A stretch of 64,000 nucleotides of DNA, taken from positions 1 to 64,000 of the forward strand of contig CACKNV010000004.1 in assembly GCA_902601705.1 (NCBI GenBank). Reading direction: 5' to 3'. The notes under the pieces are model-generated. The model made no database searches and was not told where the DNA came from. It saw only the letters and a program-made list of their open reading frames with translations. A program made the translations under genes and the position numbers. Positions within the stretch are counted from its first letter, which is position 1. Every line of letters begins with the position of its first letter. Source of the stretch: an uncultured Pelagibacteraceae bacterium. GTDB taxonomy: Bacteria; Pseudomonadota; Alphaproteobacteria; Pelagibacterales; Pelagibacteraceae. Positions 53,449-56,120 of this stretch are shown here, piece by piece.

Positions 53449-55125
53449 ATGGAAATAGATAAACTAAATAGTCTAGTAGAATTATACTTTAAAAAGTGTG
53501 AAGAGGTTGATCCTAATAAGCCTTTTTTAAAATGGTTAAAACCAGGAAAACCAACTTATAGTTGGGGGGAAATAAAAGATAGAATTTTTAAACTTTCATC
53601 AAAAATTAAATTACTAATTAAAGAGGGAGATCGCTGTTTAATATTATCTGAGAATAGACCTTATTGGTTGATATCAGATCTTGCCGTGATGAATGCAGGA
53701 GGAATATCTGTTCCAATTTTTACAACATATTCATCAAATGATTATGAGTATATTTTAAATGACTGTAAGCCATCTTTAATAATTGTTTCAAATAATGATC
53801 AATTTAAAAAAATAAAAAAACACGTTAATTTAAGTGAACAAAAATTAATCTCTTTTGAAGAGATAGATGCTGACAGTTTATTAATTCAAAATATACTTAA
53901 AGACAAAAATTATAAAAAAGAGATTAATAAAAAATTAAAAAGAAATATGCCTGCATGTATAATTTATACATCAGGAACATCAGGAAATCCTAAAGGAGTA
54001 ATTTTAAGTCACGGTGGTATCTTATCTAATTGCGAGGGAGCTGTTGAGTTACTTGAAACCTTGACTAAAAAAAAAGATCCTACTTTTTTAACTTGGCTAC
54101 CCTTATCACATTCTTATGAACACACTGTTCAATTTATACAAATTATCGTAGGTGCTAAAGTTTTCTATGCAGAAAGCTTAGAAAAATTAATTTCAAATAT
54201 GGGTGTTGCTAAACCAACTATAATGACTGCAGTTCCAAGATTTTACCAAAATCTTTTTACAAAAATAAACATGAATTTTGAAAAACAAAAAGGTCTCAAA
54301 AAAAAATTAATAAAACAAACCTTGAGTTTAGGCATCAAATTATTAAAAAAAGAGAAATTACGTGTAAGTGATGAAATAATAAATTTTTTTTGTGAAAAAC
54401 TAGTAAGAAAAAAAATTAGAGGTCAATTTGGAGGAAATCTTCAGGCCTTCGTTTCTGGTGGGGGAGCGTTAGATCAAAAAATAGGAGAATTTTTAAATGC
54501 TATAGGATTACCTACTTTACAAGGCTATGGTCTAACGGAAGCTTCTCCAGTTGTAAGTTGTAATTTACCTAATTTAGTTAAGGTTGAATCAGTTGGTCCT
54601 CCATTCAGAACAAATAAAGTAAAAATTGCTGAAGATGGAGAAATACTAATTAAGGGTGAAAATGTGATGCTGGGCTATTGGAATCTTAAAGAAGAGACAG
54701 AAAAAGTGATTAAAGATGGTTGGTTGCATACAGGAGATATTGGTGAGTTTGATGAAAATAATTATTTAAAAATAACAGATAGAAAAAAAGATATAATTGT
54801 AAATTTAGGAGGTGATAATATTTCACCAAGCAAGATTGAAAATATTTTATGTTTAAACGAATTTATCAAACAATCTTTTGTTTATGGAGACAAAAAAAAT
54901 TATTTAGTAGCAATAATAGTCACTGAAAAAGAAATTAATAAAGAAAAAATTAAACTTATAATTGAAAATATTAACAAAAGTTTAACTTTGATAGAAAAAA
55001 TTAAAAAATTTGTTTTAATTCATGAAGAATTTACAATTGAAAACAGAATGTTAACACCAACTTTAAAGTTAAAAAGAAAAGAAATAATTAAAAATTATAA
55101 ACAACAATTAGAAAATCTTTATTAA
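53449..55125 (+). CDS. AMP-forming long-chain acyl-CoA synthetase
   Basis: Adenylates a fatty acid and ligates it to CoA. The 558 residues show the AMP-binding motif IIYTSGTSGNPKGVILSH (about residues 171-188), the FVSGGGALDQKIGEF and QGYGLTEASPVVSCN segments, and the DGWLHTGDIGEFDENNYLKITDRKKDIIVNLGGDNISP C-terminal hinge region. Matches long-chain (FadD/FAA-like) synthetases. The ATG lies 4 nt after the tRNA CCA and no ribosome-binding site fits in between, so the mature message may be leaderless. Confidence 0.9.
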   Translation: MEIDKLNSLVELYFKKCEEVDPNKPFLKWLKPGKPTYSWGEIKDRIFKLSSKIKLLIKEGDRCLILSENRPYWLISDLAVMNAGGISVPIFTTYSSNDYEYILNDCKPSLIIVSNNDQFKKIKKHVNLSEQKLISFEEIDADSLLIQNILKDKNYKKEINKKLKRNMPACIIYTSGTSGNPKGVILSHGGILSNCEGAVELLETLTKKKDPTFLTWLPLSHSYEHTVQFIQIIVGAKVFYAESLEKLISNMGVAKPTIMTAVPRFYQNLFTKINMNFEKQKGLKKKLIKQTLSLGIKLLKKEKLRVSDEIINFFCEKLVRKKIRGQFGGNLQAFVSGGGALDQKIGEFLNAIGLPTLQGYGLTEASPVVSCNLPNLVKVESVGPPFRTNKVKIAEDGEILIKGENVMLGYWNLKEETEKVIKDGWLHTGDIGEFDENNYLKITDRKKDIIVNLGGDNISPSKIENILCLNEFIKQSFVYGDKKNYLVAIIVTEKEINKEKIKLIIENINKSLTLIEKIKKFVLIHEEFTIENRMLTPTLKLKRKEIIKNYKQQLENLY

Positions 55126-55255: not shown

Positions 55256-55283
55256 TTGACATGAATCTTTTAATAATTAATGT
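55256..55283 (+). promoter_or_regulatory. Candidate promoter of the 22-residue basic peptide gene
   Basis: Perfect -35 TTGACA, 16-nt spacer, then TAATGT as a poor -10. The only other TTGACA-type box before this gene was not found. It is about 50 nt before the peptide's start codon. Confidence 0.45.
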
Positions 55284-55333
55284 TTAATTAACAAACGAAT
55301 CATTAAGATTTGTTTAACAACAAGGGAGAAAAG

Positions 55334-55402
55334 ATGGCTAAAAGAAGAAAAAAAGCTAAGAAAAAGAAAAAAGCTAAAAAGAGAAGAAGAAAAAGAAGAT
55401 AG
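55334..55402 (+). CDS. 22-residue polycationic peptide (18 of 22 residues Lys/Arg)
   Basis: An ATG at 55334 opens MAKRRKKAKKKKKAKKRRRK-RR and a TAG stop at 55402; it is too short for the ORF track. Eleven Lys and seven Arg alternate with Ala as repeated K/R blocks. A strong AAGGGAG site lies 5 nt before the ATG, an apparent promoter is upstream, and a strong intrinsic terminator follows 14 nt after the stop. This makes translation likely despite the low complexity. It recalls other tiny basic ribosome-associated proteins such as eL41 or bS22 in composition only. Nucleic acid or ribosome binding is inference; I know no named family for it. Confidence 0.7.
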   Translation: MAKRRKKAKKKKKAKKRRRKRR

Positions 55403-55416
55403 TTTTCTCTTTTATT

Positions 55417-55456
55417 AAACGCCCTTTTTAACTATTTTAAAAAGGGCGTTTTTTTT
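55417..55456 (+). terminator. Strong intrinsic terminator after the polycationic peptide
   Basis: AAACGCCCTTTTTA at 55417-55430 pairs with TAAAAAGGGCGTTT at 55438-55451, a perfect 14-bp stem with a 7-nt loop, followed by T8 on the plus strand. The minus-strand tail is poorer in T. It also overlaps the end of carD. Confidence 0.9.
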
Positions 55457-56120
55457 ATTCTGCACTTTCTGAAATATTAGTTCTTCCTAAAGCTTTATCC
55501 ATTTTTTTTTGAACATCGTCTGAACTTATTTTTAGGACTGCTTCGAATTCTGATTTCAGTCTTTCATAGGCCTTTTCAAATAACTGTCTCTCAGAATAGG
55601 ACTGATCTGCAATGATATCCGTATTTTTATTTAGGTCTTTTACCACTTCGGCTAATTCATAGATTTTACCAGAATTAATTTTTTGATCATATTCTTGAGC
55701 TCTTCTGCTCCACATAGTCCTTTTAATTTTAGGTTTTGTTTTTAAAATCGAGATACATTTATTAATTTGATTTATAGAAGCAATAGGTCTTAATTTTGAT
55801 TGTTGATTTATAGGAACAGTTAAAGTTAATTTTTCTTTTTCAACTAATATTTTATAAAACTGAATATCTATCTCACCAATTTTTGCTTTTTCAATAGCTG
55901 TAATTTTACCAACCCCATGTTTTGGGTAAACTACAAAATCTTTCAAATTATAAATTCGCTTTTCAGTAGGCTGTTTCTTTATTTTTTTTATTTCCGGTTT
56001 TTCATCAGTGCCAGGAATAGCACTCTTTTTTTCAGTTATTTTTGAAGGAAGTTTTACTTTTGAACGTAATTTTACTTTTTTTATTTTTTTTACTTTTTTC
56101 GACTTTTTCTTTTTTGGCAT
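55455..56120 (-). CDS. carD: CarD-family transcription regulator with Lys-rich N-terminal extension
   Basis: A CarD/CdnL-type RNA polymerase-binding protein that stabilises open promoter complexes. The RNAP-interaction domain is KDFVVYPKHGVGKITAIEKAKIGEIDIQFYKILVEKEKLTLTVPI (about residues 59-103); the C-terminal helical DNA-binding part includes MWSRRAQEYDQKINSGKIYELAEVVKDL. The first 55 residues (PKKKKSKKVKKIKKVKLRSK...) form a lysine-rich, probably disordered extension. Last gene of the helicase-terB-fdxA-carD set, a typical alphaproteobacterial grouping. Confidence 0.92.
   Translation of the reverse strand: MPKKKKSKKVKKIKKVKLRSKVKLPSKITEKKSAIPGTDEKPEIKKIKKQPTEKRIYNLKDFVVYPKHGVGKITAIEKAKIGEIDIQFYKILVEKEKLTLTVPINQQSKLRPIASINQINKCISILKTKPKIKRTMWSRRAQEYDQKINSGKIYELAEVVKDLNKNTDIIADQSYSERQLFEKAYERLKSEFEAVLKISSDDVQKKMDKALGRTNISESAE

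Follow-up and report, generated by a model that had tools for sequence, protein, structure and literature searches.

In this work, we analysed a Lys/Arg-rich micro-ORF located between an acyl-CoA synthetase gene and carD in a 64,000-nt stretch of DNA (hereafter the window), which belongs to a SAR11 genome of 1.08 Mb in 15 contigs (Table 1). The initial annotation had described here a gene for a peptide of 22 residues, 18 of them Lys or Arg and three Ala, preceded by an AAGGGAG site and set in a 208-nt spacer that follows the acyl-CoA synthetase stop at 55125, and each of these features was found in the sequence. The TTGACA box, placed about 50 nt upstream in that description, actually lies 78 nt from the ATG. 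As to the promoter of the gene, the -35 box persists across the order, the candidate -10 box is weak, and a promoter scan of the window did not list the promoter of the micro-ORF. The terminator is present, as a hairpin of 15 pairs with a loop of 5 (55417-55451) followed by a T run, but it is probably not dedicated to the micro-ORF: because it is located between the two convergent stop codons and abuts that of carD, it is probably shared with carD and ends the transcripts of both genes. The sole Rfam match at the gathering score was tRNA; matches with weak E-values on 55366-55463 (PyrR, PyrG leader, atoC and LhrC) fell far under the cut-offs, resembled terminator look-alikes and were rejected. 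As to the neighbouring carD product, CarD in the window has a Lys-rich N-terminal tail (MPKKKKSKKVKKIKKVKLRSK; start of carD, 56010-56120), and some other alphaproteobacterial CarD proteins (L128, L129) carry long H1-like tails; a link between these tails and the adjoining basic protein is possible.

Table 1. Features of the micro-ORF locus, with positions in the window.
Feature	Position	Strand	Basis
Acyl-CoA synthetase (AMP-binding), upstream neighbour, 558 aa	53449..55125	+	Pfam AMP-binding 6.5e-68
-35 box TTGACA	55256..55261	+	TTGAC at 38-42 nt before the start of CGAATC in 138/143 leaders
Candidate -10 box TAATGT, weak, spacer 16	55278..55283	+	Read from sequence alone
5' leader hairpin AAACGAAUC-AUUAA-GAUUUGUUU, 9 bp	55293..55315	+	-7.2 kcal/mol, z -3.17
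CGAATCA (TGATTCG on the minus strand), GANTC site with extended GcrA motif	55296..55302	+	Leader conservation and motif of PMC7987155
Ribosome-binding site AAGGGAG	55322..55328	+	GGGAG or a close form in 143/143 distinct complete leaders
Lys/Arg micro-ORF, 22 aa, MAKRRKKAKKKKKAKKRRRKRR, net charge +18	55334..55402	+	Read in sequence; frame conserved among relatives
Hairpin terminator with T run, probably common to micro-ORF and convergent carD	55417..55456	+	Hairpin kept in relatives
carD, convergent neighbour, 221 aa, Lys-rich N-terminal tail	55455..56120	-	Pfam CarD_C 6.4e-20, CarD_TRCF_RID 4.5e-12

The locus was surveyed in relatives using carD as bait, so that the presence of the ORF was not presupposed. 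A Lys/Arg ORF of 21-25 aa and of the same design was found in 75 of the 80 carD-selected Pelagibacterales loci, at a distance of 51-80 nt from where the carD match ends, and in the remaining five the contig stops before the position of the ORF. Furthermore, (i) in each of the 144 loci compared, the gene and carD are convergent, (ii) every covered locus has an open frame, a start codon, a ribosome-binding site and a hairpin terminator, (iii) codons 2-5 differ only synonymously (AGA/CGT/CGA) among 72 carD-selected loci, and AAA/AAG swaps, also synonymous, occur within the micro-ORF, and (iv) all length differences between orthologues are whole codons. The micro-ORF is a real gene under protein-level constraint. 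Conservation of the frame and of the ribosome-binding site in relatives had been proposed as a test of the gene, and both are kept, so that it was not refuted; the observation of a free-standing Lys/Arg peptide gene holds, and more strongly than first stated. Across Pelagibacterales the -35 box and a leader block, CGAATCA, persist together with the ribosome-binding site and the frame. The carD flanks of 24 other alphaproteobacteria contained no comparable Lys/Arg-rich ORF beside carD, and a search of the class outside Pelagibacterales with a strict pattern, too strict to exclude longer forms, gave no match.

CGAATCA is the sole block conserved at 98% or more over 90 nt in 71 diverse leaders; CGAATC was present in all 143 distinct complete leaders, 142 of which have the full CGAATCA; TTGAC was cut off or absent in the five leaders that do not show it at the range given in Table 1. 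The block is the exact reverse complement of TGATTCG, a form of the extended GcrA motif reported as YGAKTCK for Caulobacter (PMC7987155). As expected of a GcrA/CcrM-regulated promoter, this GANTC site with the extended motif lies near the promoter and is conserved in orthologues. The genome of the window encodes GcrA (6.5e-40) and a methylase of CcrM type (357 aa, N6_N4_Mtase 2.9e-68), assigned by family and of putative specificity. GANTC is under-represented in the window (98 sites observed against about 176 expected), and TGATTCG occurs genome-wide at 10 sites against 47 for the reversed pattern, which is a rough control; four of the 10 sites lie outside long ORFs, that of the micro-ORF leader among them. 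If transcription starts where the -35 box predicts, CGAATCA would occupy about +4 to +10, which is compatible with the GcrA coverage from -35 to +7 seen at ctrAP1 (PMC3667746). The micro-ORF shares with the GcrA/CcrM sigma-70 promoters of Alphaproteobacteria the same exact TGATTCG near a -35-type promoter, in a genome encoding both proteins; it differs from them in that the site, a putative target of methylation and GcrA binding, apparently falls within the initial transcribed region and also forms one arm of a hairpin. Taken together, these results suggest that transcription of the micro-ORF is probably under GcrA/CcrM control. Against this role, the candidate site lies after the predicted start and the hairpin by itself could explain part of the conservation of CGAATCA; moreover, GcrA of B. 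subvibrioides shows no preference for the extended motif (PMC7987155). The same promoter architecture or spacing was not found elsewhere in the genome. In P. ubique, a motif survey reported the fewest conserved orthologues and very few likely GcrA targets (PMC7987155), but a survey of annotated genes would miss the micro-ORF if it was unannotated.

Other occurrences of the motif were seen in passing. Two TGATTCG sites (L195:1501 and L199:1501, that is G000:C1:248092 and G000:C2:114213) lie directly at gene starts, one preceding a ClpX-like gene and the other between DUF-type and UbiA-like genes, and are candidate GcrA targets. The second family of the order, f2, carries a second conserved CGAATCA element (approximately GTCCGAATCAYYAAC...ATGTTC...AAATATTCTAAT) in an apparent spacer 1-2 kb from carD (L110:3151, L112:3177 on the minus strand, L115:3208, L116:3167 and L117:1784 on the minus strand), possibly another GcrA-type promoter or an unannotated RNA.

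The CGAATCA block is also the 5' arm of the leader hairpin, whose stem averages 8.3 bp in 97 unique leaders compared with 3.3 bp after shuffling. In group g1 the 3' arm lacks GATTC and G-U pairing is kept, and in g2, g4 and g5 the stem is rebuilt from other sequence, CGAAT being unpaired there yet unchanged (g2-g11 and f1/f2 are anonymous labels for genera and families of Pelagibacterales, respectively). Because G-U pairs are retained and stems rebuilt, the pairing appears to be selected as RNA, with the sequence of the 5' arm frozen in addition. These features, together with the z-score of the window hairpin (-3.17) and the presence of the stem in nearly all leaders, would also suit an element that acts only as RNA, either as a 5'-terminal stability hairpin or as an autoregulatory site bound by the peptide, with no part for GcrA/CcrM. 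We consider this a real possibility, although on the improbable side, since only the 5' arm is frozen, at a fixed distance from the -35 box and with a sequence equal to the GcrA motif, and since CGAAT stays unchanged where it does not pair. Most simply, the leader would keep both a DNA site and an RNA hairpin. Predicted folds of g2 and g5 leaders (L091, L092, L102, L105, L107 and L109) show a second hairpin, formed between CUCC and the GGAG of the ribosome-binding site, which suggests translational control in these genera, whereas the ribosome-binding site is free in the predicted fold of the window's own leader. The best of the other hairpin copies sought in the genome had three mismatches, near the control level.

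At the slot of the micro-ORF, deeper SAR11 lineages encode longer proteins rich in Lys, Ala, Pro and Arg. Lengths in other genera of the same family are 31 aa (g4), 36-38 aa (g2), 34-58 aa (g5) and, for some members of g3, 25-35 aa; f2 proteins such as MEELKVIFAKARKKAKKKAAPKKRRKAAKKKPAKKKKAAP... have 76-91 aa, apart from one of 40, so that the slot ranges from 21 to 91 aa in total, with 21-25 aa in the crown. The long forms (76-91 aa) contain 49-54% Lys, 22-26% Ala and 6-8% Pro, while the 22-mer of the window is Lys/Arg with 14% Ala, and Pro is lost in short forms. Forms of up to 25 aa have a mean Arg fraction of 0.31 and a net charge per residue of 0.79, compared with 0.09 and 0.56, respectively, in forms of 76 aa or more; both measures fall with length (Spearman -0.87 and -0.88, respectively, over 66 unique proteins, shared ancestry not corrected). 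On a carD tree rooted at its midpoint, length falls from f2, which has the longest forms, through deep f1 to the crown with the shortest; the direction would be shrinkage rather than expansion. Short and long forms do not align significantly; their common position, leader and terminator argue that they are homologous. The slot proteins are Lys/Ala-rich and of low complexity, with length variation driven by repeats, as H1-like proteins are, and the predicted product of the micro-ORF is the short form of a Lys/Ala/Arg-rich, H1-like family of Pelagibacterales spanning 21-91 aa. The long-to-short trend is that of an H1-type composition turning protamine-like.

The suggestion that a tiny basic protein had escaped every searched family model is borne out by these searches. 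With E values up to 1 considered (10 for the 23-mer), neither short nor long forms matched any family of Pfam or NCBIfam, a result to which low-complexity filters may contribute, or any solved chain; for the micro-ORF, this includes ribosomal family models and solved ribosomal chains, where sensitivity is low for a 22-mer. The gene is thus real, outside every searched family model and not an ordinary one, and its function is putative. The H1-likeness of the slot proteins is one of composition, and no membership of a named family is claimed. In the literature searched, we found no report on H1-like or lysine-rich histone-like proteins in SAR11, nor a relevant paper on the SAR11 nucleoid, and the main text of the survey of Pelagibacter structured RNAs by Meyer et al. 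2009 mentions neither carD nor acyl-CoA nor histone.

Several known systems offer comparisons. For animals, the origin of protamines from H1-like ancestors via Arg enrichment is a known idea. Protamines and protamine-like sperm nuclear basic proteins are likewise short and Arg/Lys-rich, whereas the SAR11 micro-protein is bacterial, vegetative and still about half lysine; the likeness is an analogy and no homology is claimed. The bacterial H1-like proteins (chlamydial Hc2, Bordetella BpH1 and the C-terminal domain of AlgP) are Lys/Ala(/Pro) low-complexity polycations whose length varies by repeats (PMC2848022, PMC9239181), and the long SAR11 forms share this composition. Hc2 and BpH1, however, measure 165-237 and 182-206 aa, respectively (PMC2848022), whereas the SAR11 forms (21-91 aa) are free-standing, Arg-rich when short, tied to one locus and one leader, and give no detectable sequence match to them.

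Of the two protein readings in the initial annotation, nucleoid-associated (histone-tail-like) and ribosomal, the tiny basic protein stands and the former is favoured, because the slot proteins of deeper lineages are longer, Lys/Ala/Pro-rich and H1-like. We propose an H1/protamine-type, DNA-packing nucleoid micro-protein, probably transcribed via GcrA/CcrM, a reading to which we assign roughly even weight for and against. Its DNA binding, its control by GcrA and its timing are what we infer from these patterns. As a disordered polycation it would bind DNA without sequence specificity and help to neutralise and compact the nucleoid. Its protamine-like 21-25-mer form in crown SAR11 would have arisen through loss of Ala/Pro/Lys repeats and gain of Arg. 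Transcription would depend on the consensus -35 box and on an initial transcribed region whose GcrA site (CGAATCA/TGATTCG) is invariant and open to methylation by CcrM; it would change when the replication fork passes and leaves GANTC hemimethylated. The hairpin near the 5' end may stabilise the mRNA and, where CUCC pairs with GGAG in deeper lineages, may block access to the ribosome-binding site. The full form of the proposal, an order-wide bacterial protamine in SAR11, shrunk from an H1-like ancestor, Arg-enriched, replication-timed via CcrM/GcrA and packing the genome, is doubtful as a whole.

Polycations also bind RNA and polyphosphate, which counts against a reading in terms of DNA. RNA or polyphosphate could be the main partner instead, the protein acting as an RNA chaperone or as a polyphosphate organiser in the way of AlgP, an H1-like protein that organises polyphosphate granules (PMC9239181). 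Sequence does not tell one polyanion partner from another; nevertheless, the neighbourhood contains no polyphosphate or RNA metabolism genes and the adjoining carD concerns transcription, and although evidence from neighbourhood is weak we consider this alternative unlikely. A ribosome-associated micro-protein, whose short basic helix would sit inside the rRNA close to helix 44, has precedents in eL41, mS38 and bS22, very short Arg/Lys-rich elements near h44 (PMC6582356), which the crown forms resemble in size and composition. It retains some probability because crown forms are uniform in length (21-25 aa), but a four-fold length variation with repeat-like expansion in the orthologous slot would be unusual in a buried ribosomal peptide, and the lack of matches among Pfam, NCBIfam and solved chains, ribosomal ones included, also makes this quite improbable. 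Finally, an ORF arisen by chance in A/G-rich spacer DNA, or a small RNA without any coding function, which an AT-rich genome with purine-rich stretches, the -35 box and the terminator would also suit, is hardly credible, given that all covered loci have an open frame with its start codon and ribosome-binding site, that lengths change by whole codons and that codon swaps are synonymous. As to the earlier idea of the coding part of a small RNA, the ORF is under coding constraint and the 5' hairpin resembles an mRNA leader.

If the nucleoid reading is true, few dedicated nucleoid proteins would be smaller than this micro-protein, which occurs across an entire, extremely abundant order of bacteria and which the searched family models do not recognise; it would help in packing the genome of very small cells, the most abundant in the ocean. 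The slot would provide a graded natural series in bacteria from H1-like to protamine-like, and its leader a candidate core GcrA/CcrM target in SAR11, in which very few such targets emerged when annotated genes were surveyed for the motif (PMC7987155).

A further observation concerns the assemblies themselves. About 24 of the 80 single-cell or metagenome contigs stop approximately 90-410 nt past carD, in or beside the micro-ORF (L004, L009, L015/L016, L018, L024, L025, L028, L035, L037, L038, L042, L045, L049 and others; L015 and L016 are two inverted ends of one contig), far more than the lengths of the contigs would give. Assemblies seem to break at the purine-rich ORF and hairpin, and this would help the gene to stay hidden.
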